Shown here: piece by piece, positions 11,802 through 34,621 of the stretch
How positions within the stretch are numbered: position 1 is the stretch's first letter
Layout of the letters: each line of letters opens with the position of its first letter
NCBI GenBank assembly: GCA_963555705.1
Contig: OY743180.1
Span: forward strand, 38,286,129-38,350,128
Direction: 5' to 3'
DNA: 64,000 nt
From: Ligustrum vulgare
Taxonomy: Eukaryota > Streptophyta > Magnoliopsida > Lamiales > Oleaceae
Notes under the pieces: model-generated
What the model saw: only the letters and a program-made list of their open reading frames with translations
The model's database searches: none
Told to the model about the DNA's origin: nothing
Translations under genes and position numbers: made by a program

Positions 11802-14119
11802 TGACACGACCCCATCTCGAATCACCCTATGTGGACCCGAGACGTGGTGTGCGCCGATGATGGATGCCAGCTAGATACTGGACCCACCACCAAGGCTACA
11901 GAAACTTCTCGTAATACCCCATGATTTTAAAAAAATTTGACAGAGTTCCCTTTAAATATTGGATATAACCTCCCTGTAACAAATCAACAAATCCTCAAAC
12001 CACCACATGTAAAATACTGGGAATTCATATCCCTTCCCATCATCATATCAAAAATCAAAAGAGCGTATGACTGCCCATCTAGTTCTTACTACATATCATC
12101 CATTCCACTTACATTCAATACATCAACATATCATTCTAATCAACTAAGCACTTAACAAAACAATAACTCGAGAATGGACCGAGTTAAATATATATACATG
12201 GATCCCAAAAGAATGATAAAGACTAGAACATACAACTAAATGATCTTTGGCTCTTTGGCAGGCTTTCCAACTTCCTCTCAAAACTCAAAAGTATCCTGGT
12301 AATGAAAATGTTACAAAAATATGAGATTTTAACTCAGTGAGTGGAGTGTTTGAAAACTAGTCATACTTTTCTCGTTTATAATTCTTTATAAAGTCACTAT
12401 TTGTTTTGTAACTATATCTTTTGATTGACATAAGAAAAGATTTTACTTATCTGAAAAGCACATCTAGCTGAAATGAGAATTTATAAATACTGAAACCATG
12501 GCATAAATTGTGATAACTATCTGATAATACTAAAAATTCGTTGAACTGTAATGAGAAGCTGAAATATTTTTCTATGAATAAATATATCATACTGTACTGA
12601 AAAGAATCACATCAAAGTGTACCCAATGAATAACTTTACTCAAGTACAGAGTACTCTCGATGTACAAGGCAAAGCCATTCAAATCTGATAAGCTGATAAT
12701 CTGATAAACTGTGTCATATGCGCATAGACTGCCCCAAAGGCTAAAGCACCCTAGTACACGGCCCAAAGCCTATATGTGCACAAGAGTGGGTCCCAAAGAC
12801 CTCTGATAATCTGATAATATGGTCATACACTGTGGAAACGAATTCACATCAGTGCAGAGCGGGTAATATCACCTGGATACTTCTGATGGTTTTTCACAAT
12901 AATAATTTACATGTAACAAATTCTTTTATAGAATAATGTACTAAATTTATAATTTGATTAGCGAAGAAGTCTAAAATCATGCTTCTAAACTTGTATTTGC
13001 GAAAAGTAGTAATTTCCGTAACTTGTCTACTTAATTGAAAACAGGAATCGTATGGAAAATTTATGCCATTAAATATTAAAATTTAACTTTAAGGAAAAAT
13101 AAGTTTCTCCACTCACAGAGATTGTGACTGAAACCTAGTTTGGCTGATAGGCCTGGCCAATCTCCGTGTCGCCTCCTGAAAATTAAATTAAAACCTTGGA
13201 TCAACTCTACTAATTACAAATATTTAACAAATGCCCAAAATGAAATAACATCCTATACAATAACCACAAATTTCATATGCCTCCAACATTACATCCAACC
13301 AACCTTCTCTTATGTGAAATATAGCTTCATTATAACTCATATATCCTTTATTTAACCAATACCTCAATGGAATGCTCATAGACACCAAAACCCCTTTCCA
13401 AGAAACTAGTAATGGACTAATTCTTCAACTTAATTACATGGGTAATTTAATCTCCAAATAAACATCACCAAATTAAGCTTGAAATAATTTAACATAAACT
13501 CCAATAACTCAATCTTGCCCAAATCATGAATTTAATCCACTATTATTTCAAACCCTAGCATGTAACCACAATGTATTCAACCAAACTTAAATATTTAGCT
13601 CAATATCTTCAAGGGAACCATAAATCCATCCAAAAATCTAACATTTAACTCAAAAATCAAAACCCTAAAATCAACATCATATCTCAAATAAATGGGTATT
13701 GCCTTACCTCTTGAAAATGAAAATGAAGTCTTGAATGTTGAATGAAATTCCCCCTTTTTCCTTATCTTCTTCTTCCTTCCTTTTTCTTTTCTTTCTTCCT
13801 TTTTCCCCTTTTTTCTTCCTTTCTCTGCGTAACTCTCTCTGTGGTAGTGAAAATGTGTTTGGTTTGGTTGAAATGTTGTCTACTAATGTCAAGACAATGT
13901 AAAGTTTGATGGAAATTGCTTGTTGGGTCCTTCATTTATCTTTCAATAAAATTCCCATACATATATGATAATAAGTCCCCCAACTAATAATAAAATTTAA
14001 ATGATCCCCAAAATATCCACTCATTTAAATTGGTCCCCACTTGGACTAAATTGGTCAAAAATAAATGTTGACTTGATAAAATAATTATTTGACTTGTAAA
14101 ATTAAAGTGGGTTGTGACA
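11802..14119 (-). repeat. Element A, 3' LTR (left copy)
   Basis: It starts TGACACGACCCC and ends GGGTTGTGACA on the plus strand; it is the same length as, and nearly identical to, 28607-30924. It contains a pyrimidine-rich stretch (about 13750-13830). Short frames in it are mirrored in the other copy and are not genes. Confidence 0.95.
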
Positions 14120-14132
14120 ATCTTACCTCCTT
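14120..14132 (-). other. Element A polypurine tract
   Basis: The minus strand reads 'aaggaggtaagat' directly before the 3' LTR. A near-palindromic word, gaatttcgtcctcgaaattc (14136-14155), sits next to it. Element B carries almost the same pair (21840-21852 and 21858-21875), which ties the two families together. Confidence 0.8.
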
Positions 14133-14161
14133 AGAGAATTTCGTCCTCGAAATTCAATCAA

Positions 14162-17100
14162 CTACCATCTTAGAAGGTCAGGATACTTGGCTCGAGTTTG
14201 ATCTTCGTTTTCCCAAGTAGCTTCATCCACTGGATGATTCTTCCAAAGAACCTTGACAAATGGAATAATCTGGTTGTGCTGAATTTGTTCCTTTCGTTCA
14301 AGTATCCCTTCTGGTTCCTCCTCGTAAGTTAAATTCTCCTTAAGTTCCACTGGCTGTGGCTCGAGAATATGAGATGAATCTGGAATGTACTTACGAAGCA
14401 TCGAAATGTGGAATACATCATGAATCCTAGATAACTCATCTGGCAATGCTAAACGATAAGCCACTGGACCATTTCGTTCCACAATCTCATAAGGTCCAAT
14501 ATATCTTGGACTTAATTTCCCTCGCTTGCCAAATCTCAACACACCTTTCCAAGGAGACAATTTAAGGAAAACTCTATCTCCAACAGCAAATTCAAGATCT
14601 TTCCTGCGTCTGTCTGCATAACTTTTTTGTCTATCTTGAGCTGCTTTTAACTTCTCTTTAATCACTTTCACCGTTTCTGTGGCTATCTGAATAAATTCTG
14701 GTCCTTCTAATCTCCTCTCGCCTACTTCACCCCAACAAACTGGCGTTCTACATTTCCTGCCATACAGTGCTTCAAAAGGTGCCATCTCTATACTCGAGTG
14801 ATAACTGTTATTATAAGCAAACTCCATCAAACGCAGATGAGAATCCCAACTTCCTTTGAACTCTAGAACACAAGCTCTTAGCATATCTTCTAAGGTCTGT
14901 ATGGTCCTCTCTGATTGACCATCTGTTTGTGGGTGGAAAGCTGTACTGAACTGTAGTTTAGTACCCAAAGCATCTTGCAAACTAGGCCAAAACTTGGAAG
15001 TAAATCTAGGATCTCTGTCAGATACAATAGACACTGGAGTCCCATACAAACTGACTATCTCATCCACATACAACTTTGCTAGTTTACTCAGAGAAAAGGT
15101 AGCTTTGATCGGCAAGAATCTTGAAGTTTTGGTCAAACGATCGACAATCACCCAAACACCATCATGTCCATTTTGAGTGCGAGGAAGACCAAATAAGAAA
15201 TCCATAGTAATATGCTCCCATTTCCACTCCGGAATAGGCAGTGGCTGAAGAAGTCCAGCTGTTTTCTGGCGATCGGGTTTCACCTGTTGGCAGACAAAAC
15301 ACGTCGATACAAACTCAGCAATTTCTCTTTTCATACCACGCCACCAATAATGCTCCTTCAGGGTATGATACATTTTGGTGCTACCAGGATGCATAGCATA
15401 ACCTGAACTGTGCGCTTCTTCCAATATTTCTTTCTTCAATTCTGGAATATCAGGAACACATAGCCTATTTCCCATAAATAATGCACCATCCCTGATTTCA
15501 TAGTCTGTTCGCAAGCCAACAGTAACTTCTGCTTCCAAAGTTTTCAATGCCAAATCCTGCAATTGAGCTTCTCTAACTTTGTTTATCAGAGTAGGCCTCA
15601 CCTGAAAGTGAGCTAAGAGTGCCCCTGTAGTAGTTGTGGATAACTGAGCATGTAAGGTTCTAAATTCACCCATCAAAGCAGCACACATCGCACTAGATTT
15701 GGTGGAATGGCTACTGACCTTCCTACTCAAAGCGTCAGCAACTACATTAGCTTTTCCCGGATGATAATCAATTTTGCAATCATAATCTTTGATAAGTTCT
15801 AACCATCGCCTCTGTCTCAAATTCAATTCTTTTTGATCAAAGATATACTTCAAGCTCTTGTGGTCCGTGAATATCTGACATTTTTCACCATACAAATAAT
15901 GTCTCCATATTTTTAGTGCCAAAACCACTGCTGCCAATTCCAAATCATGAGTTGGGTAGTTTAGTTCATGCTTCTTCAATTGTCTAGAAGCATAAGCTAT
16001 AACCTTTCCATTCTGCATTAAAACACAGCCCAAACCTTGGCGTGATGCATCGCTATAGACTACAAACTCTTCACCTGGAGAAGGAAGAGTGAGTATAGGA
16101 GCGGAAACCAATCTACTTTTCAGCTCTTGGAAGCTCTTCTCACATTCTGGTGTCCACAAAAATTTCGAATCCTTTCGAGTCAAGCTAGTTAAAGGAAGAG
16201 CAATTTTGGAAAATCCTTCCACAAATCGACGATAATAACCCGCTAACCCAAGAAAACTTCGCACTTCTGTCACATTAGAAGGGCGCTCCCATTTCATCAC
16301 AGCTTCTGTCTTGATCGGATCTACATAAATGCCTTTTGCTGATATCACGTGACCTAGAAATACCACTTTATCCAGCCAATACTCACACTTGCTGAATTTC
16401 GCATACAAATGCTTATCCTTCAAGGTCTGCAATATAATTTTCAAATGCCCTGCATGTTCATCCTTGCTAGGAGAATATACCAAAATATCATCAATGAAAA
16501 CAATCACAAATCTGTCCAGATAAGGATGCAAAACTCTATTCATCAAATCCATAAATGCAGCTGGGGCATTAGTAAGCCCAAATGGCATCACCAAGAACTC
16601 ATAATGGCCATATCGAGTCCTAAAAGCAGTCTTTGGTATATCGGCATCTTTGATCTTCAGCTGATGATACCCGGATCGTAAATCAATTTTAGAAAATACT
16701 GCAGCACCTCGAAGTTGGTCAAATAAATCATCAATGCGAGGTAACGGGTACTTGTTACGAATCGTAACTTTATTCAACTGTCTGTAGTCAATACACAGTC
16801 TCATCGTACCATCTTTCTTCTTCACAAATAAGACTGGCGCTCCCCATGGGGAAACACTGGGTCTAATGAAACCCTTATCCACTAATTCCTCCAGTTGTAC
16901 CTTCAATTCTTTTAACTCTGTTGGAGCCATTCTGTATGGTGCTTGTGAAATAGGTGCCGTCCCTGGAATTAAATCAATAGAGAACTCAACCTCTCTATCT
17001 GGTGGTAGTCCCGGAAGATCCTCTGGGAACACATCTGGAAAGTCTCGCACGACAGGGATATCCTCAAGTTTTGGATTAGTGAGTCTAGTATCAATCACAT

Positions 17101-18654
17101 TAGCTAAATATGCATGACAACCCTTTTTTAGCAATTTTCGTGCATCCAAAGCGGATATAACACATGATGATAAGATTCTGCGTTCTCCAACAAGAACAAA
17201 TTCAAGTTCTTCTGGCTTCCTGAACACCACTTCCTTGCGGAAGCAGTCGACTGTAGCCCGATGTTCAGAGAGAAAATCCATCCCCAAAATAACATCAAAA
17301 TCATGCATATCAAGAGGAATTAAATCTGCCCGTAATTGATGATCATTCACCCTTATCATACAATCTCTATACACATTACTAGCCAAAAGTGATACTCCTA
17401 CCGGCGTTGTTACAGCTAATTCATTATCTAAAGGCTCTAACTGCTTCTCAGCATGACAAGCAAGTGCATAAGAAATAAAAGAATGTGTAGCACCTGAATC
17501 AATTAATGTGCGAGCATCTCTACCAAAAATAGATAACATACCAATAACCACATCCGGTGACTCCTCTGCCTCCTTCTGGGTCATAGCAAATACCTTACCC
17601 TGAGTCCTGTTACGCCCTGCCTGAGCTCCAGATCTAGCAATACTACCTCTAGCAACATTAGACTGAGCACCGCCAGTCGACCCTACTGAGATGTCCCTCT
17701 GACTCTGACTCTGCCCCACATTGCTAACACCTGGCTGAGGAAATAATATATGTGATCCGCTACTTTGCTGAGATTTGATTGGGCAATCCTTCCTCATGTG
17801 TCCCATCTGACCACACTGATAACAGACTCCAACTCCCTTAAGGCACTCTCCTGGATGAAACTTCCCACAAGACTGACACTGTGGAAAGCTACGAAAATCA
17901 GAACTCTGACTAGGCCTCGATCCCTGAGATCTCTGCATAGAGCCCTGTGGATGTATATGACTCCCTCCAGTCTGCTGTACAGAACTCTGACTCCGGCCTG
18001 ACATCTTACTGAATCCCGAACTCTGAGACTTTGATTTAAAATTTGTAGAATTTGTAGCACCTGGCCAAAACCCTTTTCTATTCTTCTTAGACCCTGAAGC
18101 CCCTGTTTGGCCACTACCTCCAAAACTCGTCTGTGCCCTTTGGTTGCATCCATCTATGATAGCTGTCTCGACCCTCAAAGTCGCTTCTACCAATGACCCG
18201 AAATTTTGATGCCCATGAACTGTCACGTAAGGCCGAATATCTGATCGCAACCCCTGCTCAAATCGCCTACATTTTTCTCTTTCATCAGTGATTAAGTTAC
18301 TAGCATACTTAGACAACTCTACAAACCTCAAATGGTACTCGGCAACAGACATGGATCCTTGAACTAATCTCAAAAATTCATCACGTTTTGCATCACGATA
18401 AAATGGAGGGTAATAAGTCTCTTTGAAAGCATCCGTGAACATAGCCCAAGTAATAACGCTAGGGTCTGGATACCGACATCGATATGATGCCCACCAATCT
18501 GCAGCTCCTCCCCTCAACAGAAAAATAGCAAGACGTAACTTCTTACCCTCAGGAACCTCCATTACATCAAATATATTCTCCAAAGATTTCATCCAAAGCT
18601 CAGCATCAGCTGGGTTGGATGTACCCATAAAAGTTTTTGCTCCAAGTTTCATAG
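14162..18654 (-). CDS. Element A gag-pol polyprotein (1,496 codons after the B insertion)
   Basis: This is the polyprotein of a Ty3/gypsy element. In order: retrotransposon gag (about 15-170, [11 protein letters not shown] and [14 protein letters not shown]), a Ser/Gly/Gln-rich linker, a zinc knuckle [14 protein letters not shown] (about 277-290), aspartic protease [10 protein letters not shown] (about 382), reverse transcriptase with FIDDILVYS (about 717), RNase H starting VYSDAS (about 864), an HHCC integrase zinc domain (about 1080-1125), an integrase core with D near 1149, SDRDPRF near 1213 and QSERT near 1245, and a chromodomain-like C-terminus ([14 protein letters not shown], about 1460). 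All catalytic motifs are present and no stop interrupts it. The natural start is not here: the frame continues from 28522-28262 on the other side of element B, adding 86 codons upstream. The C-terminus points to the Tekay/Del group, with moderate confidence. Confidence 0.95.
18650..18654. repeat. Left TSD (CATAG) of element B
   Basis: It is identical to 28262-28266. Removing B and one copy joins the two gag halves in the same reading frame. Confidence 0.9.
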
Positions 18655-21600
18655 TGTAGCGCCCCGAGTTCCGTATACCCGATTCACTACGTCATTTTCT
18701 GTCTAAATTTTTCGAATAATATTTTTGCGAAAGAAATAATTGAAATTCATTTTTGGCAACATTAAATAAACTGTAATGGCCGATAAAATTGAAAACATTT
18801 ATGAAACCATTTGAAATAGTAAATCGAACCATTAATATTGTAAAGAAATTGCCAATGTCATAATTTCTCAAATAAATGAACTTCTCTAAATTATTCGATT
18901 GTTTGGAAAATACGGAAACCATTAACGTCAAACTTTCAACTGTTTAACGATTATTGCCACCATCATTCATCGCTCGCCACCGTCTCCGAAATCTGCAAAA
19001 CTGTTAAAAAGTAGGGTGAGTATTTCATGGGGGAAATACTCAGTAGACTCATCGCAAATTAATTTAATTTATAAGATGATTAAACACATAAATCCCGGCT
19101 CTTTATAAAACGGGCATTGATAGAGCTTCTTTATAAAACGGCTCTTGATAAAACTCATATTGTGCATTACAGCACGGGACATATTTTGCAAATCATAGGC
19201 TCTTTGAAATTAGCTCTTTGAAAACAGCTCTTTGAAAACCATATACTTATAAAACACATTTTAATTATGCCAAGCATAATTTCTTTTGAAAGCATAACAT
19301 AAGATAGGATTGAAATCCTCATAAACATAAAGAGACACAAGAACTTTACCGAACTTAGGTGGCAAGAATTCTTATGCAGTAAAATCATAATAACAGTAAA
19401 ATCACAGTAAGATCATAATAACAGTAAGTATACCAAAACATAATTCATGAAATTCATAGGGATCATTTCCATCATAACATAAGATAGGATCGAAATCCTC
19501 ATAAACATATGCGACAGGAATTTTACCGAACTTAGGTGGTAAATCCTCATAAACATATGGAAAGACAGGAATTTTACCGAACTTAGGTGGTAAATCCTCA
19601 TAAACTTATGGAGACACAAGAATTTTACCGAACTTAGGTGGTAAGAATTCTTATGTGCATAGCAATGATCCAAAACATATAAAACATTATCGTAAAAACA
19701 TAGGGTATACTTACTTTTCATAAAAACATAAGGTATATTTACCTTTCATAAAACATACTTAATTTTCTTGAAAATTGACTTTCACAAGTCACATGACATT
19801 TATATGAAATCATAATTTAAATCAATTAATAAGTGCGAGTCTACCTCAAATCCGACGAGTGCAAAGTTGAGCGGGAATGACTTCAATTTCTTTAAATTCT
19901 CCGTACGCTTCGTCTTAGCCAATAAGTCACTTTAGTCTATCGAATATATAGTTCAAAATGATAAATTATAATTTGAGGACTAAAATTGATATTTTGAAAG
20001 TTGAGGGACTAAAATGAATACTTTGAAAGTTGAGGGACTAAAATGAATACTTTTAAAACTTGGGCTTAAAAGTAAATCAACAGGGACTGAAATGATAAGT
20101 TTGAAGCTAAAAGGACTGAATAAAACCTTTTTAAAACTTGAGGGGCTGATTTGAAATAACATTAAAACTTTAAAAAGGGCTGAAATAAACTTTTCAAAGC
20201 TATAGGGACTGATTTAAATCATTCAGAAGACGTAGGGACCAAAGTGCAAATTCTCGAAATATAATTCAGATTCTTTACTTTACTCTCTCATTTCAGATCG
20301 AGAAGAGACAGGGGGAGAGCAAAGCGAGAGATAGAGAGATGGCGTGCGAAATCGTGAGGGAAAAGGAGTGAAATCCGATCTTCCAGTCGGCGATGTGCCG
20401 GCGGTTCACCGGCGAAACGCCAGTGCAAGGTGCGGCAAGGGATGGGGTTGAAGATTATGGTTTCAGTGCGAGTTGGGTGTGAGAAACTGTGACGAACCGT
20501 GGCTTAGATCGCGATTTGGGAGTTGGGTTTTAACTGCGAAATCCGGTGGTCGTGCCGGTAAATCAGTCGGCGATCGAAGGTAAGTCTTGGGCTTGGTTTA
20601 TTTCTTGTTTTGGTTTTGATTTGAGGTTGGTTTTTGATTTGTTTGGGGTTAATGGTGGATTCTTAGAGTTTTCAGGCGACGGTTGTGGCTCTGGATGCAG
20701 GGAACGAAGGTGGTGTTTGATCCTGATGATGGTGATTGTGATTTGGTTGAACCGGTGAGGTGGTGGATTGAATTTGAAATGGCAGAGACAGTGATGGTTG
20801 AGGTGATGATGTTGATGATACATAGGTTTCGTGATTATGGTTTGGGGCTGCAACTGATAATTGTGGTAGCTGGATTGAGGATTGTTGGTTGACAGTGATG
20901 GCTGCAGAGTTGTGATTTGTGGTATTGCAGTGAACTTGGTTTGCTGTAAATGGATTGGGTTGGTGAAACGTTGTGAGTAATCAGGGTGATGATCATGATG
21001 TAGCCGGTTGGTTGGGTGATTGATTTGTGGCTGCCGGTTATGGAGTTGAGGCAAAGCTTGTGGATTGATGATGATTATAGTGATTGTCGTGATGGTAGGA
21101 CTGTGCTTGCAGGCGATTGGCAATGGTTCTGTGAAGGGCTGCAACCGGTGGTTTGGGTTGCTGCAAGCTGTCGAGGTTGCAGTAAAATTGATCATGGTGT
21201 TGATAAGGGATTTTGGCTATGGTGGAGGTGCTGATGTTCAGACTTGTGGTGTTGGAATTGTGGCATGGTGGCAGTATGGTCTGCGTGATGGCAGAGTGAT
21301 GGACGGTGAGGCAGTGTGGGTGGACTGTGGTTGCACTCGACTGAGATGGAGATGGAGCTTGGTGCAGGTGATGAAGATGTATGCTTATATATATTGTATT
21401 GTGGAATCTAAGTACATGGAAGTGTGAGTTGTGCCATGAGTATTGAAATGAAGATGGGGTAGATGATGATAATGATGAAGATGGAATATGAAATAGATGT
21501 AAAATTTATATATATAATGATGATGTTTTTGTATAAGGAATTGTATTAAAACTGATATATTTTGGACTGAAAATAAATTTGAATAAGGAAAATTGAAATA

Positions 21601-21839
21601 TTTTAATAAATTTGGAATTCAAAATAATTTTGAAGATAATACTTTGAATAAACAATTAAAATAACATAATTTTAGAAATTCGGACATTTAATTTAAAATC
21701 GAACAAATTCGATATTTCTTGACTTGGCTAGACGAATCCGTCGCGGCGTTAACTTCAAAATAATAGGTAAAATAGTAGCGATACAATTTTCTAAATATTA
21801 AAATAATTATTTATTGCATAAAAATTCTGGGTCGCTATA
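18655..21839 (-). repeat. Element B, 3' LTR (left copy)
   Basis: On the plus strand it begins TGTAGCGCCCCGAG and ends GGGTCGCTATA. It contains tandem repeats of about 60 bp with 'gaattttaccgaacttaggtgg' words (about 19280-19650) and shorter repeats 'gggactaaaatgaatac' (about 19978-20060). A diverged solo copy of the same family lies at 55361-58004. Frames of 60-210 codons in it are low-complexity (His/Thr/Pro-rich) and not convincing genes. Confidence 0.95.
19280..19660. repeat. Minisatellite inside the B-family LTR (left copy)
   Basis: Four imperfect copies of a unit of about 60-80 bp carrying 'cctcataaacat', a GACA/CACA segment and 'ttttaccgaacttaggtgg' occur. The same array is at about 25702-26082 in the right LTR. 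It may be a regulatory or structural repeat of the LTR; that is inference. Confidence 0.7.
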
Positions 21840-21852
21840 ATCTTACCCCCTT
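21840..21852 (-). other. Element B polypurine tract
   Basis: The minus strand reads 'aagggggtaagat' directly before the LTR. It is followed by the near-palindrome aatttcgtcctcgaaatt (21858-21875), also present in element A. Confidence 0.8.
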
Positions 21853-21875
21853 AAAATAATTTCGTCCTCGAAATT

Positions 21876-22380
21876 AAACTTACTTAATCTTATAATTTCT
21901 GAATACTTAATCAGAATCTCTTCTTCTTATCATCGAATATTCTCAAAATAATCAAAACAATTACCTGAATATTATCTCTACGCAATATACCCAAACATAT
22001 CAACATAATATCATCAACTTATCTTTCCAATATTTGTAACCCAAAATTCAGTAAACAAATATCTCCCAAAACTAAGATTCTATACTTAAATGTCACCAAA
22101 TTTCCTGCAAAGTATTTCTTTCACTTGTATATACGTATGAATTCTGATTCAATACGGTACTCATTTTACTTTCCACGTATCATCACATTATACCAAGATT
22201 ATCATTATTAAAACAAAATATCAGTACCCATAATCCAAGAAAATATTCCAAATCTCCAATCAAATCTCCTTTATCGATAAAATTTAACAGCGCATTACTT
22301 CTTGTCTCCTCTTTTCATTAAAATAATCCTGCGCTTTCTTGCTGGTCACAACATCACGCGGATTCACTCAGATCCTTGCG
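21876..22380. other. Element B interior, left non-coding part
   Basis: It is AT-rich without a recognised gene. Words 'cctgcgctttc' (about 22330) and 'ccttgcgcttttaaatag' (about 22374) are similar and may be a short duplication upstream of the first ORF. Confidence 0.5.
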
Positions 22381-22391
22381 CTTTTAAATAG
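22381..22391 (+). promoter_or_regulatory. CTTTTAAATAG motif before the cysteine-cluster ORF
   Basis: A TATA-like word lies 28 bp upstream of the first ATG (22409) and 43 bp upstream of the second in-frame ATG (22424). An almost identical word precedes LOG (23179-23188). It could be a pol II TATA box, or a subgenomic-promoter-like repeat inherited from an RNA template. If it is a TATA box, transcription would start near 22415, favouring the ATG at 22424. Confidence 0.45.
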
Positions 22392-22408
22392 TTCATGCTG
22401 AGAAGAGG

Positions 22409-22975
22409 TTGAATCATCAAACAATGGATATCATTCTTTCTAACATTCGCAAGTATTATTCCAGTCTTCCTATGAATGATCTGAGAAAGATCTATAAAAT
22501 AAGGCTCGAAAGATTGAGGTTGCTAATGGCTCATGATATTCCAGAAGATGTTCGCTGGTTGATAGAAGCAAAGGTTCGACTATCTGGTGAATTACCATCA
22601 ACATTTCCAAAGCACATGCCTGGTTTAGGCAAAAGCACGTTTGCAAAGAAACGAAGAGCAAAAAGACTGGGTGGTTGCTACAAATGTGCTCGTTGGAACT
22701 GTAATACTCGTTGCAAATCAGTAGGATATTCTTCTACTAATCGGGATGATAAAATCGAATTCATAAAGGGTGGACTGAGTAAGGAGTCTTTGGATGATAT
22801 TCGACTGACTCTTGAGACGCACCCAAGTGGTTATGTACAACGTGAACTTCTCTCCTTATACGCTCAGTTTAACGAGGACAAAAATCGTTATAGTCTCCAA
22901 AATATAATATCGAAAGATCCTGTTTGCCAGTCTGTTTTACAAAATGAGGCTTCTGGCAGTTCAGCAATGATATAA
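22409..22975 (+). CDS. Basic cysteine-cluster protein, possible nucleic-acid-binding protein (188 aa)
   Basis: I do not firmly recognise this protein. The first ~70 residues are charged and probably helical (LRKIYKIRLERLRLLM). A basic block, KKRRAKR (80-86), leads directly into a cysteine cluster C90-X2-C93-X4-C98-X3-C102. The C-terminal half is acidic to neutral and helical (about 112-165, GGLSKESLDDIRLTLE). A basic Arg-rich patch before a small Cys cluster is the layout of the cysteine-rich nucleic-acid-binding proteins of some plant RNA viruses (carlavirus-type NABP). That resemblance is my recognition by eye and is unproved; the flanking regions are longer than usual for that family. It starts at 22409 or, perhaps, 22424 (MDIILS). 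The ORF is intact and lies 287 bp upstream of LOG on the same strand, antisense to element B. Confidence 0.75.
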   Translation: MNHQTMDIILSNIRKYYSSLPMNDLRKIYKIRLERLRLLMAHDIPEDVRWLIEAKVRLSGELPSTFPKHMPGLGKSTFAKKRRAKRLGGCYKCARWNCNTRCKSVGYSSTNRDDKIEFIKGGLSKESLDDIRLTLETHPSGYVQRELLSLYAQFNEDKNRYSLQNIISKDPVCQSVLQNEASGSSAMI

Positions 22976-23070
22976 GGTAAATCTTTTTAAAATATTTTGC
23001 TGCTTTCTTTCACGCGTTTTGGAAATAAAATATATTTTCCTTTCTCGAGGTTTGATAAAGCTGGAAATAA

Positions 23071-23086
23071 ATCACCGAAAGGTGAT
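23071..23086 (+). ncRNA. Perfect hairpin with GAAA (GNRA) loop between the two ORFs
   Basis: ATCACC-GAAA-GGTGAT forms a perfect 6-bp stem closed by a GNRA tetraloop. TTTGATAAA occurs on each side (about 23051-23059 and 23089-23098). GNRA loops are a mark of structured RNA, but a 6-bp stem can arise by chance. It sits in the intergenic leader of LOG. Confidence 0.4.
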
Positions 23087-23178
23087 ATCTTTGATAAAAT
23101 AGTCAAAAGTTGGCCGATTTTGTCAAAAAGTGAATCTTTACTTTTTCAGAATCAATCAAAAACAGTAAATTTTTCCGG

Positions 23179-23188
23179 CTTTAAATAG
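23179..23188 (+). promoter_or_regulatory. CTTTAAATAG motif before LOG
   Basis: It matches the word at 22381-22391, one T shorter. It lies 84 bp upstream of the LOG start, a reasonable distance for a TATA box plus a leader of about 50 nt. The repeat of the same word before each ORF suggests that each ORF is expressed from its own promoter. Confidence 0.45.
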
Positions 23189-23262
23189 CCAAACATATTT
23201 CATAGTTCAGGCATCCCAAAATCACATCTTCTTCGTAAGTTTTCCCTTCTTTACTATCAAAG

Positions 23263-23916
23263 ATGGAAGCACCAAAACTTCGACAGATCAAAACTATTTG
23301 TGTATTTTGTGGATCAAAAGTGGGGAAAGGCTTCGGTTATCTAGAAGCGGCTGTAGATCTTGGAAAGAAACTGGGGGAAAAAGGTATCACTCTTGTGTAT
23401 GGGGGTGGTAGCAGTGGTCTAATGGGTTGTGTTTCCCAATCTGCTCTTGCAGAGAAATCAAAAGTAATCGGTGTCATACCTGTCCCTTTGGTAGATGTTG
23501 CAGGCAAAACACGAGGGCATGAAGTTCAAACCTTATCCATCCATGAACGCATAACTTGTATGCTATATGGTTCTGATGCCTTTATAGCCCTGCCCGGAGG
23601 TTTTGGTACCTTAGAAGAAATATTTAACATTACCTCGTGGGCTCAACTAGATCTCCATACTAAGCCTATTGGGCTTCTGAATGTTAACAATTTCTTTGAT
23701 GGTTTGTTAACCTTTATTGATTATGCTGTGGAACAGGGATTCATCTCTCCATTTTCCAGAAGGCTTCTTATTTCTGCTCCTACTATTGATGAACTACTGG
23801 ATAAGCTGCAGTCATATATCTCAATACAAGATCCAGCAGGAGTTAAAATAGATTGGTCGCAAGGAAGGGGAATCAAGCGAAAATGGAGTCCGGTTAATGT
23901 AAATTTAACTCTTTGA
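23263..23916 (+). CDS. LOG: LOG-type cytokinin riboside 5'-monophosphate phosphoribohydrolase (intronless, inside element B)
   Basis: LOG enzymes cleave ribose 5'-phosphate from cytokinin nucleotides, releasing active free-base cytokinin in one step. The 217-aa ORF has the full fold: TICVFCGSKVGK (11-22), LVYGGGSSGLMG (44-55), VIGVIP (68-73), catalytic Arg in SIHERITCM (R96), and the PGGxGTxxE signature PGGFGTLEE (111-119), then WAQLDLHTKPIGLLN. Length matches plant LOGs (about 210-240 aa). Plant LOG genes normally have several introns; this one has none, so it looks cDNA-derived. It departs from typical plant LOGs in the segment before R96 (about 63-93) and has an extended basic tail (WSQGRGIKRKWSP, 198-210). 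The ORF is intact. It lies antisense to element B, downstream of the cysteine-cluster ORF. Fold and motifs are certain; activity is inferred. Confidence 0.93.
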   Translation: MEAPKLRQIKTICVFCGSKVGKGFGYLEAAVDLGKKLGEKGITLVYGGGSSGLMGCVSQSALAEKSKVIGVIPVPLVDVAGKTRGHEVQTLSIHERITCMLYGSDAFIALPGGFGTLEEIFNITSWAQLDLHTKPIGLLNVNNFFDGLLTFIDYAVEQGFISPFSRRLLISAPTIDELLDKLQSYISIQDPAGVKIDWSQGRGIKRKWSPVNVNLTL

Positions 23917-23986
23917 ATCTTAGAATAGGTGGGGGTAGAGTACGGAGTATTCTCACTCTCGAGACACCCCTCCATTTACTAGGATT
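23916..23986 (+). ncRNA. Stem-loop repeat 1 downstream of LOG
   Basis: The core (23927-23973) starts AGGTGG and contains TACGGAGTATTCTCACTC and GAGACACCCCT. The outer arms are aatcttag (23916-23923) and ctaggatt (23979-23986), pairing except for one G-U. Inner GAGT/ACTC and GGGGT/ACCCC pairings are possible. It begins just before the LOG stop region and is part of the 3' UTR. Confidence 0.6.
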
Positions 23987-24012
23987 TCCTTAATGTTTAA
24001 ATCTTGTGTGTA

Positions 24013-24075
24013 CTTCAAAGATCCCAGGTGGTAGATTACGGAGTATTCTTACTCTCGAAACACACCTCTTTGAAG
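24013..24075 (+). ncRNA. Stem-loop repeat 2 downstream of LOG
   Basis: The core (24026-24067) reads AGGTGGTAGATTACGG..., has a GAGTA-TTCT-TACTC hairpin, and closes with CGAAACACACCT. The outer arms cttcaaag (24013-24020) and ctttgaag (24068-24075) are a perfect inverted pair unrelated in sequence to those of repeats 1 and 3. The same shape kept with different pairs suggests selection on structure. Confidence 0.65.
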
Positions 24076-24093
24076 GTTTTCTCTATTTCCTCA

Positions 24094-24155
24094 AAAGATC
24101 AGAGGTGGTAGGATACGGCTACTCCGGAAACACATCTCTCATTCTGAGGATCTTT
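24094..24155 (+). ncRNA. Stem-loop repeat 3 downstream of LOG
   Basis: The core (24103-24138) reads AGGTGGTAGGATACGG, a shortened apical hairpin CGG-CTACT-CCG, then GGAAACACATCT. The outer arms aaagatc (24094-24100) and gatcttt (24149-24155) are perfectly complementary. It is followed about 50 bp later by a poly(A)-signal word. Confidence 0.6.
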
Positions 24156-24202
24156 CCATGTTTTTTCTCTTATGCTTTCGTGTGTTCTCCTTATGAGAAA
24201 AT

Positions 24203-24208
24203 AATAAA
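24203..24208 (+). terminator. AATAAA polyadenylation-signal word downstream of the LOG cassette
   Basis: AATAAA within gagaaaataataaaatc lies 290 bp after the LOG stop and about 50 bp after stem-loop 3. With the TATA-like words it would define a plus-strand unit of about 22,381 to 24,240. In AT-rich DNA such a word is weak evidence on its own. Confidence 0.4.
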
Positions 24209-24239
24209 ATCTCTGCTATCATCTACTAAATCTCGTTTG

Positions 24240-25061
24240 TGATGTAAATGATCTTGCATGTCTAACCTTAATTCCTTTAGTGGATGCTTATCATATTATG
24301 CTCTTAATTCCAAATGATAAAATTCTGGATAGAGTCTCCCTTGTAATTTGGACTTATCCAAACCATAAGCATACTTCATAACTCACAATAATAAATAACT
24401 CCACATTTGATCACAACGATCTAAAAATATTGAAAACGATTCCAACACTTCAATATCATCAAAATATCCCATAATTCAATTCATAATTCCTCAACATAGA
24501 AATTTCAAATCATATTTTTTCAATATCACAATATTACTTCCTTCCATACCTTAATTGGCTCAAAAGTTACTCATACTTATAAATATATGCCATAAATCAT
24601 ATTCCCAAAATTTATTCACAAAGCCAAACTTCATAATAAATTTCTCTTCAACATAGAGGCATAATAAATTAACTCAACATAATATCCATTACTTAATTCT
24701 CAATAAAATCATATTATTCCCATTATGCTCAACACTCGTTTTCTTTAAAAAAAATTTCTCATAATCATACATTAAAGCATATAAGTTATGACAAAGCATA
24801 ACAACATCATTATTTTCGAAGAAATACATTCTTATTTCTCATAAATCATAAGTATCCGAAATACTCTTCATTCTTTCTCATAAATTAGTAAAATGAGTAT
24901 TCGAAATACTGAAATAACTTTAAACATCATAAACTTCTTTACCTCGGAGTTGGTGGAACGAATGATGGCAGTGGCAATCTTCATCAATAAAATTTTATAA
25001 TGGAAAATATTTCTTGAAAATTCTTTTTGAAAATTTTTCCAGTCTACAAAAACGCAGACTA
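24240..25061. other. Element B interior, right non-coding part
   Basis: AT-rich, with no gene recognised on either strand. A short minus-strand frame near the primer-binding site (24868-25074) has no family features I can name; it may be what is left of the region before gag. Confidence 0.5.
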
Positions 25062-25073
25062 GCTCTGATACCA
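25062..25073 (-). other. Element B primer-binding site (initiator tRNA-Met)
   Basis: The plus strand reads GCTCTGATACCA, so the minus strand reads TGGTATCAGAGC, three bases from the 5' LTR (25077). Element A uses the same primer. Confidence 0.9.
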
Positions 25074-25076
25074 ACT

Positions 25077-28000
25077 TGTAGCGCCCCGAGTTCCGTATAC
25101 CCGATTCACTACGTCATTTTCTGTCTAAATTTTTCGAATAATATTTTTGCGAAAGAAATAATTGAAATTCATTTTTGGCAACATTAAATAAACTGTAATG
25201 GCCGATAAAATTGAAAACATTTATGAAACCATTTGAAATAGTAAATCGAACCATTAATATTGTAAAGAAATTGCCAATGTCATAATTTCTCAAATAAATG
25301 AACTTCTCTAAATTATTCGATTGTTTGGAAAATACGGAAACCATTAACGTCAAACTTTCAACTGTTTAACGATTATTGCCACCATCATTCATCGCTCGCC
25401 ACCGTCTCCGAAATCTGCAAAACTGTTAAAAAGTAGGGTGAGTATTTCATGGGGGAAATACTCAGTAGACTCATCGCAAATTAATTTAATTTATAAGATG
25501 ATTAAACACATAAATCCCGGCTCTTTATAAAACGGGCATTGATAGAGCTTCTTTATAAAACGGCTCTTGATAAAACTCATATTGTGCATTACAGCACGGG
25601 ACATATTTTGCAAATCATAGGCTCTTTGAAATTAGCTCTTTGAAAACAGCTCTTTGAAAACCATATACTTATAAAACACATTTTAATTATGCCAAGCATA
25701 ATTTCTTTTGAAAGCATAACATAAGATAGGATTGAAATCCTCATAAACATAAAGAGACACAAGAACTTTACCGAACTTAGGTGGCAAGAATTCTTATGCA
25801 GTAAAATCATAATAACAGTAAAATCACAGTAAGATCATAATAACAGTAAGTATACCAAAACATAATTCATGAAATTCATAGGGATCATTTCCATCATAAC
25901 ATAAGATAGGATCGAAATCCTCATAAACATATGCGACAGGAATTTTACCGAACTTAGGTGGTAAATCCTCATAAACATATGGAAAGACAGGAATTTTACC
26001 GAACTTAGGTGGTAAATCCTCATAAACTTATGGAGACACAAGAATTTTACCGAACTTAGGTGGTAAGAATTCTTATGTGCATAGCAATGATCCAAAACAT
26101 ATAAAACATTATCGTAAAAACATAGGGTATACTTACTTTTCATAAAAACATAAGGTATATTTACCTTTCATAAAACATACTTAATTTTCTTGAAAATTGA
26201 CTTTCACAAGTCACATGACATTTATATGAAATCATAATTTAAATCAATTAATAAGTGCGAGTCTACCTCAAATCCGACGAGTGCAAAGTTGAGCGGGAAT
26301 GACTTCAATTTCTTTAAATTCTCCGTACGCTTCGTCTTAGCCAATAAGTCACTTTAGTCTATCGAATATATAGTTCAAAATGATAAATTATAATTTGAGG
26401 ACTAAAATTGATATTTTGAAAGTTGAGGGACTAAAATGAATACTTTGAAAGTTGAGGGACTAAAATGAATACTTTTAAAACTTGGGCTTAAAAGTAAATC
26501 AACAGGGACTGAAATGATAAGTTTGAAGCTAAAAGGACTGAATAAAACCTTTTTAAAACTTGAGGGGCTGATTTGAAATAACATTAAAACTTTAAAAAGG
26601 GCTGAAATAAACTTTTCAAAGCTATAGGGACTGATTTAAATCATTCAGAAGACGTAGGGACCAAAGTGCAAATTCTCGAAATATAATTCAGATTCTTTAC
26701 TTTACTCTCTCATTTCAGATCGAGAAGAGACAGGGGGAGAGCAAAGCGAGAGATAGAGAGATGGCGTGCGAAATCGTGAGGGAAAAGGAGTGAAATCCGA
26801 TCTTCCAGTCGGCGATGTGCCGGCGGTTCACCGGCGAAACGCCAGTGCAAGGTGCGGCAAGGGATGGGGTTGAAGATTATGGTTTCAGTGCGAGTTGGGT
26901 GTGAGAAACTGTGACGAACCGTGGCTTAGATCGCGATTTGGGAGTTGGGTTTTAACTGCGAAATCCGGTGGTCGTGCCGGTAAATCAGTCGGCGATCGAA
27001 GGTAAGTCTTGGGCTTGGTTTATTTCTTGTTTTGGTTTTGATTTGAGGTTGGTTTTTGATTTGTTTGGGGTTAATGGTGGATTCTTAGAGTTTTCAGGCG
27101 ACGGTTGTGGCTCTGGATGCAGGGAACGAAGGTGGTGTTTGATCCTGATGATGGTGATTGTGATTTGGTTGAACCGGTGAGGTGGTGGATTGAATTTGAA
27201 ATGGCAGAGACAGTGATGGTTGAGGTGATGATGTTGATGATACATAGGTTTCGTGATTATGGTTTGGGGCTGCAACTGATAATTGTGGTAGCTGGATTGA
27301 GGATTGTTGGTTGACAGTGATGGCTGCAGAGTTGTGATTTGTGGTATTGCAGTGAACTTGGTTTGCTGTAAATGGATTGGGTTGGTGAAACGTTGTGAGT
27401 AATCAGGGTGATGATCATGATGTAGCCGGTTGGTTGGGTGATTGATTTGTGGCTGCCGGTTATGGAGTTGAGGCAAAGCTTGTGGATTGATGATGATTAT
27501 AGTGATTGTCGTGATGGTAGGACTGTGCTTGCAGGCGATTGGCAATGGTTCTGTGAAGGGCTGCAACCGGTGGTTTGGGTTGCTGCAAGCTGTCGAGGTT
27601 GCAGTAAAATTGATCATGGTGTTGATAAGGGATTTTGGCTATGGTGGAGGTGCTGATGTTCAGACTTGTGGTGTTGGAATTGTGGCATGGTGGCAGTATG
27701 GTCTGCGTGATGGCAGAGTGATGGACGGTGAGGCAGTGTGGGTGGACTGTGGTTGCACTCGACTGAGATGGAGATGGAGCTTGGTGCAGGTGATGAAGAT
27801 GTATGCTTATATATATTGTATTGTGGAATCTAAGTACATGGAAGTGTGAGTTGTGCCATGAGTATTGAAATGAAGATGGGGTAGATGATGATAATGATGA
27901 AGATGGAATATGAAATAGATGTAAAATTTATATATATAATGATGATGTTTTTGTATAAGGAATTGTATTAAAACTGATATATTTTGGACTGAAAATAAAT

Positions 28001-28261
28001 TTGAATAAGGAAAATTGAAATATTTTAATAAATTTGGAATTCAAAATAATTTTGAAAATAATACTTTGAATAAACAATTAAAATAACATAATTTTAGAAA
28101 TTCAGACATTTAATTTAAAATCGAACAAATTCGATATTTCTTGACTTGGCTAGACGAATCCGTCGCGGCGTTAACTTCAAAATAATAGGTGAAATAGTAG
28201 CGATACAATTTTCTAAATATTAAAATAATTATTTATTGCATAAAAATTCTGGGTCGCTATA
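25077..28261 (-). repeat. Element B, 5' LTR (right copy)
   Basis: It is 3,185 bp, exactly the length of 18655-21839, and identical except for the three substitutions listed under element B. As the 5' LTR on the minus strand it should hold the element's own promoter. Confidence 0.95.
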
Positions 28262-28266
28262 CATAG
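28262..28266. repeat. Right TSD (CATAG) of element B
   Basis: It is identical to 18650-18654. Confidence 0.9.
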
Positions 28267-28522
28267 CTCTCTCAATGAGATTATCCTTTTCTGTGTGCGG
28301 TAGGAGGGAAGCAATAGCTGCAACGATCCTGTCAGTAGCAGGGTCAGGCTGTTCCTGCATTTGTGCCTGAGGCTGCACTGGAGGATGTACCTCGGGATGC
28401 ACCTGAGGTTGGTGAACTGATTCTGCTGCCCCACCGGCCTCCCCTACATGTCCTCCATCAGGGGCATTCTGAGTCTGAGGAATTGGATTTGGTTGCCTGC
28501 GAGTCCTACCACCACGAGCCAT
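28262..28522 (-). CDS. Element A gag-pol, N-terminal 87 codons, cut off by element B
   Basis: The ATG at 28522 opens MARGGRTRRQPN, followed by a Pro/Gln/Glu-rich segment and DRIVAAIASLLPH, typical of the start of plant chromovirus gag. The frame ends at the TSD (codons GCT ATG, ending at 28262) and resumes in phase at 18649. This start lies 85 bp inside the 5' LTR boundary, as expected after a primer-binding site and short leader. Confidence 0.85.
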
Positions 28523-28592
28523 AACTCTCTACAATGGTTGACAGAAAAAGATCAATAAATATGCAATGCAACCCAACAGACTCTATAACCAT

Positions 28593-28604
28593 GCTCTGAT
28601 ACCA
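28593..28604 (-). other. Element A primer-binding site (initiator tRNA-Met)
   Basis: The minus strand reads TGGTATCAGAGC, two bases inside the 5' LTR (which ends at 28607). Confidence 0.9.
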
Positions 28605-28606
28605 CT

Positions 28607-30924
28607 TGACACGACCCCATCTCGAATCACCCTATGTGGACCCGAGACGTGGTGTGCGCCGATGATGGATGCCAGCTAGATACTGGACCCACCACCAAGG
28701 CTACAGAAACTTCTCGTAATACCCCATGATTTTAAAAAAATTTGACAGAGTTCCCTTTAAATATTGGATATAACCTCCCTGTAACAAATCAACAAATCCT
28801 CAAACCACCACATGTAAAATACTGGGAATTCATATCCCTTCCCATCATCATATCAAAAATCAAAAGAGCGTATGCCTGCCCATCTAGTTCTTACTACATA
28901 TCATCCATTCCACTTACATTCAATACATCAACATATCATTCTAATCAACTAAGCACTTAACAAAACAATAACTCGAGAATGGACCGAGTTAAATATATAT
29001 ACATGGATCCCAAAAGAATGATAAAGACTAGAACATACAACTAAATGATCTTTGGCTCTTTGGCAGGCTTTCCAACTTCCTCTCAAAACTCAAAAGTATC
29101 CTGGTAATGAAAATGTTACAAAAATATGAGATTTTAACTCAGTGAGTGGAGTGTTTGAAAACTAGTCATACTTTTCTCGTTTATAATTCTTTATAAAGTC
29201 ACTATTTGTTTTGTAACTATATCTTTTGATTGACATAAGAAAAGATTTTACTTATCTGAAAAGCACATCTAGCTGAAATGAGAATTTATAAATACTGAAA
29301 CCATGGCATAAATTGTGATAACTATCTGATAATACTAAAAATTCGTTGAACTGTAATGAGAAGCTGAAATATTTTTCTATGAATAAATATATCATACTGT
29401 ACTGAAAAGAATCACATCAAAGTGTACCCAATGAATAACTTTACTCAAGTACAGAGTACTCTCGATGTACAAGGCAAAGCCATTCAAATCTGATAAGCTG
29501 ATAATCTGATAAACTGTGTCATATGCGCATAGACTGCCCCAAAGGCTAAAGCACCCTAGTACACGGCCCAAAGCCTATATGTGCACAAGAGTGGGTCCCA
29601 AAGACCTCTGATAATCTGATAATATGGTCATACACTGTGGAAACGAATTCACATCAGTGCAGAGCGGGTAATATCACCTGGATACTTCTGATGGTTTTTC
29701 ACAATAATAATTTACATGTAACAAATTCTTTTATAGAATAATGTACTAAATTTATAATTTGATTAGCGAAGAAGTCTAAAATCATGCTTCTAAACTTGTA
29801 TTTGCGAAAAGTAGTAATTTCCGTAACTTGTCTACTTAATTGAAAACAGGAATCGTATGGAAAATTTATGCCATTAAATATTAAAATTTAACTTTAAGGA
29901 AAAATAAGTTTCTCCACTCACAGAGATTGTGACTGAAACCTAGTTTGGCTGATAGGCCTGGCCAATCTCCGTGTCGCCTCCTGAAAATTAAATTAAAACC
30001 TTGGATCAACTCTACTAATTACAAATATTTAACAAATGCCCAAAATGAAATAACATCCTATACAATAACCACAAATTTCATATGCCTCCAACATTACATC
30101 CAACCAACCTTCTCTTATGTGAAATATAGCTTCATTATAACTCATATATCCTTTATTTAACCAATACCTCAATGGAATGCTCATAGACACCAAAACCCCT
30201 TTCCAAGAAACTAGTAATGGACTAATTCTTCAACTTAATTACATGGGTAATTTAATCTCCAAATAAACATCACCAAATTAAGCTTGAAATAATTTAACAT
30301 AAACTCCAATAACTCAATCTTGCCCAAATCATGAATTTAATCCACTATTATTTCAAACCCTAGCATGTAACCACAATGTATTCAACCAAACTTAAATATT
30401 TAGCTCAATATCTTCAAGGGAACCATAAATCCATCCAAAAATCTAACATTTAACTCAAAAATCAAAACCCTAAAATCAACATCATATCTCAAATAAATGG
30501 GTATTGCCTTAGCTCTTGAAAATGAAAATGAAGTCTTGAATGTTGAATGAAATTCCCCCTTTTTCCTTATCTTCTTCTTCCTTCCTTTTTCTTTTCTTTC
30601 TTCCTTTTTCCCCTTTTTTCTTCCTTTCTCTGCGTAACTCTCTCTGTGGTAGTGAAAATGTGTTTGGTTTGGTTGAAATGTTGTCTACTAATGTCAAGAC
30701 AATGTAAAGTTTGATGGAAATTGCTTGTTGGGTCCTTCATTTATCTTTCAATAAAATTCCCATACATATATGATAATAAGTCCCCCAACTAATAATAAAA
30801 TTTAAATGATCCCCAAAATATCCACTCATTTAAATTGGTCCCCACTTGGACTAAATTGGTCAAAAATAAATGTTGACTTGATAAAATAATTATTTGACTT
30901 GTAAAATTAAAGTGGGTTGTGACA
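28607..30924 (-). repeat. Element A, 5' LTR (right copy)
   Basis: It is 2,318 bp, matching 11802-14119. On the minus strand it runs from TGTCACAACCC at 30924 to ...GTCGTGTCA at 28607. Confidence 0.95.
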
Positions 30925-32618: not shown

Positions 32619-34621
32619 CTTACTCTTAGGGGTGTAAATCGGTTTGGGCGATTTTTGACAAATTTTCAAACCAAACCTTTTAAAACGGTTTGACTTTTTC
32701 AACCCAAACCAAATATTTAATTTCCTAAACCAAACAAAACCAGATCAAACAATTTTTAGCGGTTTGGTGCTGGTTCAAACTATAGTTTGCAAACAAAATT
32801 AATCAAAAAAAGATTTCAAACAACGGCTGATCACAAGAATCATATAAAATCTTGTTAAGAGGCTTTTCACTAGCATAACATAGTAATATACTATAATAAA
32901 GCTCATAGATAAGTTATACATTAATTAGGAACCAAACATCAAAAAGATTATTGTCGAAAAGAAATTGAGTCTAGATTAGTAAAAATGCGTGTCAAATCTG
33001 GAATTAGATTTAGCCTTTTTACTAAATCTAGAAAATAGTGAAGAGAATAAAATATCTTCAACTTAAATCAAATTCATACGCCTTCATTCAAAATGAAGGC
33101 AGAATCAAAATATTTCAAATGTCCATTGTCCACAACAATATAGCATGACGGTAATATTAAAAACTTTTCCCAACAAAATGACAAATCATACAAGAATCAA
33201 AATGACAAAAATGGGTTTTTGTTGGTTGTTGGTTTGAAACGGGTTTTGAAAAGTGAAACTTAAACTAAACTATTTGAAAGCGGTTCGGTTTCGGTCAAAA
33301 CCAAAAGTTGACGGGTCTACGTGGATCTAAACCAACGGTTTCAAAATTGAGTTTTCAATTTGGTTTAGCGGTAGTGATGGAAAGGGGGTGGGTTCAGGAT
33401 GGGTACCCCGACCCTCTACTTGCCCCCGCGAATTTCATAGCGGATCGGGTTCGGGACGGGGCAACCCGAGTCTAATTTTGTTCACCCCCCATTTGGGGGG
33501 TGAACGTTACCCCCTTCCTTTTTTTAATAAAAAAATTGTACAAATCAACTCAAAAAAGAAAAGGGACCCACCAATTTTCTTGAAAACTGATGTTAGCTTC
33601 TAAAAGAAGTTTTTTATATATGTGCAGCAAATGGAATTTTTTTTATTAAAAAAAAAGGTACAAATCAATTTCTCAATAGAAAGGGCCTAACAATTTTCTT
33701 GAGAATACATTTTAGCTTCCAAAAAATGCTTTTCATATATTTGCAGCAAAGGGAAAATGCACTGGAAGACAATACGAAAAAGTCTCCATTTTCGGGCCAT
33801 TTATTACAATAGAATTAAGTAAAAAAAAAAAATCGAAATATATTTTCAACAGCTCGTTGTCGTATTTTTCAACAGGTGGGTTCTATTTTTTTTTCTGATA
33901 TTCAAAATTTCAACTGGTGGGTTTTTTTTTTCCTGATATTCAAGATATATACATACTACAGTATTTGGTCATTTGAGTGCACTAACGTCGTTGTGTTCTT
34001 CCTGTTGATTAATGTGTTTGATGTATTTTTATTTTTATATTCTTGTTGCAGATTATTGATTTGAAATGGGACTCATATTTTGAACCTAAGATTTTCAAGT
34101 TCATCAACTTTTCAGGTAAATAACTTCTTTAGTAATGCAATAAAATGGGTTCTTGTCTTGAAAGTTATGTGGGTTTGGATTGTAGTTTTTTCTGCCTTCA
34201 TATGAATTTATGATATTTTATGTGATATAATGTTTAATGTCTTCCCAATAATTTATGATCAAGTCTCCATGCATGACAATTTGAATTTAAGTCTAGTGTT
34301 TTCGTGTTGGAGTTGCAAAATGTAAACTTGATAATTAGTGCATCAGCAGCAAAAGGAAATCTGAATTGATGGGCTTTGAGGTTTAGGACTTAATGGAAAT
34401 CAAAGTTGTAAGAAAGAATTATGGGAGTTTCTGCTTATTTTGTATGCTTATTTTAAATGGAGAGATTATGGGGAGAGGGAGAATTGATGGTAGAATGAAA
34501 TGGTTGTAGGTCATGAGTTCTATATGCTTGGAGTTTTACCATATCCAATGATCTGTGGAACTTGGAGAATGCAAATAACTTATTGATTCATGTTAGTTCT
34601 TATGAATTAGATTAGAATTTT

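Follow-up and report, generated by a model that had tools for sequence, protein, structure and literature searches.

The 64,000-nucleotide stretch of Ligustrum vulgare DNA analyzed in this study (assembly GCA_963555705.1, contig OY743180.1, positions 38,286,129 to 38,350,128; hereafter the window) contains a long terminal repeat (LTR) element, here called B, which is inserted within the gag gene of a second, likewise young LTR element, A. The interior of B holds two intact open reading frames (ORFs), ORF1 for a protein of the viral NABP type and ORF2 for a LOG-type phosphoribohydrolase. We read B as one of many copies of a non-autonomous LTR element of Tekay-like type, in which NABP and a remodelled LOG are the only recognized genes. 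The features are listed in Table 1.

Table 1. Coordinates of elements A and B and of the shared module within the window
Feature	Position	Strand	Remark
Element A, Tekay-like Ty3	11802..30924	-	gag split by B
LTRs of element A	11802-14119 / 28607-30924		2 mismatches per 2318 bp
Target-site duplication of B, CATAG	left copy 18650..18654, right copy 28262..28266	no strand	5 bp
3' LTR of B	18655..21839	-	element sense minus; 3185 bp
Polypurine tract of B, TAAGGGGGTAAGAT	21840..21853	-	
Module common to B and unrelated group II backbone	22213..24185	+	82.6% identical to L031
Module core common to B and group III (L043)	22380-24152	+	plus 49-bp block near 22119
TATA-like TTTAAATAG	22383..22391	+	~41 bp upstream of ORF1 start
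ORF1, NABP/Carla_C4 family	22424..22975	+	183 aa; CxxC-x4-C-x3-C after basic run
Second TTTAAATAG	23180..23188	+	upstream of LOG
ORF2, LOG-type phosphoribohydrolase	23263..23916	+	217 aa; altered base pocket; tail VNVNLTL
Three imperfect repeats 3' of LOG	23925..24152	+	86-91% identical between backbones
Primer-binding site of B, TGGTATCAGAGC	25062..25073	-	tRNA-Met type
5' LTR of B	25077..28261	-	element sense minus; 3185 bp

An earlier note on this DNA had described B as complete in its LTRs, target-site duplication (TSD), primer-binding site (PBS) and polypurine tract (PPT), and all of these were confirmed in the sequence. The two LTRs align without gaps and differ at 3 of 3185 positions, all three A/G. 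This divergence dates the insertion to about 36,000-67,000 years ago (rates of 1.3e-8 to 7e-9 per site per year), in agreement with the earlier estimate of less than about 100,000 years. Both PBS and PPT are found on the minus strand, which makes this the sense strand of B and places the two plus-strand ORFs antisense to it; the earlier note mentions neither this orientation nor the viral type of ORF1. With this full set of structures B fits a non-autonomous LTR retrotransposon. The ORF lists and comparison with two pol proteins revealed no gag-pol inside B; tblastn at 1e-5 found no similarity to the pol of element A or to that of L001, an integrase-bearing contig described below. In this respect B qualifies as a large retrotransposon derivative (LARD), and its description as a young LARD-like element with a two-gene cassette including an intact LOG ORF holds. 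LARDs are by definition non-coding, whereas the two ORFs of B show ratios of nonsynonymous to synonymous substitution (dN/dS) of 0.09-0.17 between backbones. Chance ORFs were considered as an account of ORF1 and ORF2 and were dropped.

The polyprotein of element A matches the reverse transcriptase, RNase H and integrase families in Pfam, and its pol matches a chromodomain weakly (E 0.0033, short of the Pfam cut-off). When the short gag flanks of B are joined minus one TSD, the frame is open across 39 codons. A and B have identical PBSs and are 78% alike over 79 bp spanning the LTR start and the PPT (E 1e-6) and 77% alike over 70 bp adjoining the LTR (E 1e-7). B is taken as a Tekay-like, non-autonomous element because the PBS and the LTR start with the PPT are common to both. 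The lineage label Tekay is our own reading for A as well as for B, which encodes neither reverse transcriptase nor integrase. An old relative of the LTR of B, about 76-83% similar in patches, lies in reverse orientation at 55360-57760 of the window, and no similarity to NABP or LOG was found elsewhere in the window outside B.

ORF1 matches the Pfam families Viral_NABP (E 3.4e-7, 30.9 bits; curated cut-off 23) and Carla_C4 (E 5.1e-6, 26.8 bits; curated cut-off 20.9). At E 0.001, 26 and 24 of 27 aligned ORF1-family members match these two models, respectively, while 0 of 5 shuffled ORF1 controls, in which every C, K and R was kept, did so. The zinc-knuckle gag-pol of element A gave no match to the viral NABP models. 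By these profile matches, ORF1 is a member of the NABP/Carla_C4 family of carlavirus-like plant viruses. The cysteine cluster seen at first is present, but the protein is more than that, belonging to a recognizable family. It shares with the cysteine-rich NABPs of carlaviruses, allexiviruses and mandariviruses (Pfam PF05515 and PF01623) the basic run and the four-cysteine cluster. Unlike them, the ORF1 family is about 182 aa long, has a long conserved C-terminal half and is encoded in chromosomal LTR elements. In protein databases, 352 of 404 candidate homologues passed E 0.01. Among the best 120 of these 352, identity is 53-72% across most of the protein, CxxC-x4-C-x3-C is present in 105, and all named source organisms are plants (genera Orobanche, Striga, Populus, Xanthoceras and Acer), the remainder being nameless. 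Comparison with PDB sequences gave nothing (best E 0.25), and IMG/VR searches with the single protein and with the alignment gave 7 and 61 pattern matches, of which none was confirmed. We found no literature linking NABP or carlavirus-type proteins to LTR retrotransposons, although most subscription papers were out of reach.

ORF2 matches Pfam PF03641 (E 9e-34), and its nearest solved structure is AtLOG3. Like this plant enzyme (PDB 2a33/2q4o), it has the LOG fold (TM 0.94, target-normalised), R96, E118, E119 and PGGxGTxxE. Unlike AtLOG3, it has K97 changed to I, E122 to N and M93 to I, and an added basic and LxLxL-like tail. We mapped the residues of ORF2 onto the LOG of Corynebacterium glutamicum (CgLOG; PMC4979012). 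Catalytic Arg99 and Glu122 are retained as R96 and E119, and the phosphate-site residues Ser19 and Thr119 as S18 and T116; the catalytic R and E of PGGxGTxxE are retained in all 35 distinct genomic LOG copies. In the adenine/prenyl site, Met96, Lys100 and Glu125 are changed to I93, I97 and N122, so that the prenyl pocket M, H, K, E, W reads I93, H94, I97, N122, W126, with three of five residues replaced. Of 120 listed relatives of ORF2, 112 have M, I or L in place of the pocket Lys and 102 have Q or H in place of Glu125; both residues are conserved in 120/120 host LOG3-like proteins. In CgLOG, alanine at AMP-binding and catalytic residues nearly abolishes activity, with the exception of S19A (PMC4979012). 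Given these effects and the changed pocket, cytokinin activation cannot be assumed for ORF2, and the term "hormone-activating enzyme" used in the earlier note is not supported even though the catalytic residues are retained.

LxLxL, the sequence by which the EAR motif is defined (PMC6283911), occurs within the last 15 residues in 93 of the 120 relatives and in 0/120 host LOG3-like proteins. The corresponding counts for a basic run plus relaxed LxLxL within the last 25 residues are 94/120 and 0/120. The 120 relatives include 38 Reevesia clusters and are non-independent. No literature on a LOG with an EAR tail was found, most subscription papers being out of reach. In a phylogeny of 52 chosen rows, a branch with support 99/96 sets ORF2 and 33 transposon-type LOGs apart from 16 LOG3-like rows and AtLOG8; host sampling was narrow, the bootstrap was unsettled and long branches were flagged. 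Caution is needed in annotation, as some plant genes called 'LOGL10' (Diospyros and Populus entries) look like transposon genes.

The cassette is abundant in this genome. The assembly comprises 1.385 Gb in 51 contigs, and matches were found on contigs numbered up to C23, those of known size being 41-100 Mb long; if these stand for 23 chromosomes, the number might be of an Oleaceae type. The places scored are part of the first-look candidates (7,995 for LOG, 8,795 for NABP and 2,639 for the cassette DNA). Scoring of 150 NABP places, that of the window among them, gave 100% identity across 183 residues and no stop in every one (contigs C1-C16). All 150 scored LOG places exceed the Pfam cut-off, one with a stop inside the matched domain, and all 40 scored matches of the cassette DNA are 99-100% identical. 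Some copies stand in tandem with a spacing of about 6.0-7.1 kb, near that of one LTR plus interior. The earlier note had named, as a point that would speak against it, that only this one copy might carry the cassette; the NABP and cassette counts speak otherwise. A host gene pair with introns was dropped in view of the absence of introns and of the 150 or more dispersed copies.

We sampled 20 ten-kb copies down a list ranked by LOG score and grouped the loci by interior similarity. NABP followed by LOG on one strand was found in all 20, with NABP fragmented in two. Group I has the B-type LTR (the window and L042). Group II comprises 11 loci and the chimera L034, with an LTR start of TGTTGACC or TGTTAGCC in 8. 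The 7 loci of group III have short LTRs, about 180-260 bp long. Representatives of the three groups are 81-83% identical over the module and share next to nothing beyond it (1e-6). Relative to the NABP start, the alignment of I with II spans -211 to +1761, and that of I with III spans -44 to +1728 plus a 49-bp block. Of ten 1-kb windows along B, the three at 21455-24454 match 20/20 loci, and the others match 0 loci or L042 only. No pol similarity to A or L001 was found in the 20 loci (10 kb each) at 1e-5. A PBS was located in 17 of the 20, 10 times of the tRNA-Met type and 7 times of the GTTATCAGCACGAG type, and always lies antisense to NABP and LOG; a sense PBS upstream of NABP was found in 0/20. 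TSDs were recovered by script in 7/20 loci, five of them in group III. A single capture private to B was dropped, the module being common to at least three LTR backbones. L034 (G000:C8:8417813-8427803) was rejected as a fourth family. It is a chimera with a group II LTR and the module within a different LTR pair, and its outer LTR pair of 860 bp is 97.8% identical with the TSD GTTTA. It is possibly a snapshot of the module changing carriers.

The sharing might reflect vertical descent, in which the module was already part of a single ancestral LARD and remained conserved while LTRs and backbone changed past recognition, with no transfer between families. Gene order and antisense orientation are alike in all groups, as this predicts, and the upstream 49-bp block is common to I and III. 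However, the inter-ORF spacer, although less conserved than the stretch after LOG, is still 72-77% identical between groups over aligned positions, while the backbones are almost matchless at 1e-6. PPTs differ as well, as do LTR lengths (about 180 bp to more than 3 kb). The primer sites are also of different kinds. A GTTATCAGCACGAG-type site (at most one mismatch) is present in 7/7 group III loci and may fit a half tRNA-Ile primer. According to PMC6317226, this half-tRNA primer type is found only in Ty1/copia, in the Bianca lineage. If group III were Bianca-like Ty1/copia, the module would cross the Ty1/Ty3 divide. On balance, vertical descent is unlikely.

Both module genes are under purifying selection between backbones. 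For LOG, dN/dS is 0.097 (I-II, 24 pairs), 0.087 (I-III, 14 pairs) and 0.104 (II-III, 84 pairs), with dS of 0.38-0.49. For NABP, it is 0.135 (I-II, 22 pairs), 0.126 (I-III, 12 pairs) and 0.172 (II-III, 66 pairs), with dS of 0.55-0.80. In these sets L034 was counted in group II, and L030 and L044 were omitted for NABP since no alignment reached 165 aa. Across three genome searches and the sampled loci, neither stops nor gaps occur in 31 of 35 distinct LOG copies, and 31 of the 34 NABP copies that reach 165 aa are stop-free. These values bear on the possibility that the module is passive cargo, two genes that the B lineage transduplicated and amplified and that are intact only through the youth of the copies. 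B and many other copies are indeed very young or near-identical, gene capture by LTR elements is described as common in PMC7264820, and dN/dS is higher within groups. Youth does not account for low ratios at the dS seen between backbones, for the ratio of 0.19 between B-NABP and the NABP of L001, or for homologues elsewhere that are 53-72% identical, those named among the 120 listed all being from plants. We consider passive cargo very unlikely.

L001 is a contig deposited in a bacterial metagenome-assembled genome, which we read as plant Athila-like contamination; it looks like plant retrotransposon DNA. Its integrase frame gives no chromodomain match. NABP comes next, read in the same direction, and nothing similar to LOG was found in the remaining 1 kb. 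B-NABP and this pol-linked NABP differ by dN 0.281 and dS 1.445, and synonymous sites are partly saturated. The arrangement also bears on the idea that the module was once a mobile or viral element in its own right, for example left over from a flexivirus-like RNA virus or a satellite of one, and entered LTR elements separately. The NABP families are known from Alpha- and Betaflexiviridae, to which the fold search points weakly, and both ORFs are intronless. Against it, NABP in L001 is a sense extra ORF downstream of pol, B shows no viral gene for replication, movement or coat in its ORF lists or, for the two ORFs only, in Pfam, and a repeat scan of 22200-24300 found no long terminal repeats bounding the module. 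This origin seems quite improbable to us.

In other plants, three Orobanche gene models fuse NABP and LOG domains (two were rescanned). We also compared the longest contigs of 105 NABP and 64 LOG clusters of the 120 + 120 listed, omitting chromosome-size or contig-less clusters. Seven NABP/LOG cluster pairs had longest contigs of equal size, four of them at least 1.5 kb, and 0 of 2000 jittered sets reached four. For these four, equal sizes suggest the same contig. NABP and LOG are thus probably partnered in other genomes too.

As for signals, TTTAAATA stands at the TATA-like position before NABP in 4/4 checked copies of groups I and III and is altered in 2/2 with a group II interior. The repeats after LOG may form a stem-loop, with one compensatory pair (one event). 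Folding of 23920-24180 as a whole gave no signal (z -0.2); five single repeats gave z of -0.6 to -2.5 and are kept as a lead only. These repeats are a possible functional RNA element. An Rfam scan of the B interior gave one sub-threshold match, which was taken as chance.

With structure, copy number, sharing, antisense orientation and purifying selection as observed, we consider it rather likely that the module is a transferable accessory unit, present in several LTR backbones, translated and selected, that helps its carrier to persist. Its own mRNA would start from the TATA-like site before NABP, and intact elements such as the family of A would provide reverse transcription and integration in trans. 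NABP might act like its viral relatives, by binding nucleic acids, suppressing silencing or controlling transcription. LOG might be a nucleotide phosphoribohydrolase with a shifted substrate, a TOPLESS recruiter through its EAR-like tail, or both. Together they would aid element persistence via silencing, transcription or nucleotide chemistry. Antisense placement would be favoured because a unit in sense orientation could end or split the genomic RNA early. Any single function of NABP or LOG, as judged from sequence, is held with less confidence than the accessory-unit reading as a whole.

Several observations weigh against this reading. Ranking by LOG score favours loci with an intact LOG, though not an intact NABP. 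Stops occur in 4/20 sampled LOG copies and 3/20 NABP copies, and two further NABP copies are broken. Within groups, dN/dS is higher and scattered (LOG 0.152/0.283, NABP 0.203/0.293, single pairs up to 2.2), which is expected if many copies decay after insertion. The altered prenyl and adenine pocket may mean that ORF2 has lost cytokinin activation, and its own tail, VNVNLTL, matches LxLxL in relaxed form only. The structure model of NABP is poor (pLDDT 56) and its viral fold matches are non-significant, the best being E 0.17 in BFVD. Of the top six BFVD entries, the first is nameless and the other five are NABPs or silencing suppressors of carla- or allexi-like viruses (Sweet potato chlorotic fleck, Helleborus mosaic, Fig latent 1, Chrysanthemum B and Garlic A). 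Finally, the AATAAA at 24203 falls beyond the end of the shared module, and the window was alone among six copies checked in having it at this place.

A bolder form of the accessory-unit reading is that the module moves between unrelated LTR families of both superfamilies like an effector cassette, under strong selection in antisense, and lets its non-autonomous carriers reach very high copy numbers. One protein, of flexivirus type, would counter silencing or alter transcription, and the other, a remodelled LOG with a repressor-like tail, would shift nucleotide or hormone chemistry in dividing cells. We put this forward tentatively and do not think it the likelier outcome.

Other features of the window are an exon of glutamyl-tRNA reductase (HEMA-like) at 2051-3184 on the minus strand and, at 4809-5396 on the same strand, what by eye may be an N-terminal transit-peptide-like exon of the HEMA-like gene. 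A SWIM-type ORF (34611-35282), a Copia-like RNase H remnant (37948-38424, by eye), a hAT-like fragment (48668-49555) and a Ty3 gag (62964-63770) were also seen.

Non-autonomous LTR elements are usually regarded as non-coding parasites of autonomous ones. Here, very abundant elements that lack gag-pol hold, across unrelated backbones, a pair of selected accessory genes whose relatives are a virus protein family and a hormone-enzyme family. If the module aids its carriers, three long-standing questions become testable: why antisense extra ORFs persist in plant LTR elements, what allows non-autonomous elements to become more numerous than their helpers, and whether retrotransposons counter silencing with virus-like effectors.

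Three known systems come close to B. LARDs share with it complete LTRs, PBS, PPT and TSD without gag-pol; they are non-coding, whereas B encodes two selected proteins. The suggestion that B represents an undescribed class stands in part. LOG-type (YgdH) domains have been published for LTR elements of Citrus and Populus (Alvarado-Marchena 2022, PMC9289625, citing Steinbauerova 2011), and LOG in Ty3 elements has been published before. Searches of the literature within reach turned up neither the virus-type partner nor an antisense module common to several backbones, nor selection on it. The published YgdH/LOG extra ORFs resemble ORF2 as LOG-type domains carried by LTR retrotransposons; unlike B, they come from consensuses selected by reverse transcriptase, and the accessible part of that account contains no NABP partner, antisense multi-backbone module, EAR-like tail or selection test. 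The antisense extra ORFs of Grande, RIRE2 and Retand (aORF-3R; PMC7264820) are likewise antisense accessory ORFs, some with their own promoter, but they lie beside gag-pol and lack clear similarity to known proteins. B, unlike these elements, has no gag-pol, encodes two recognizable families and has its module in common with several LTR backbones.

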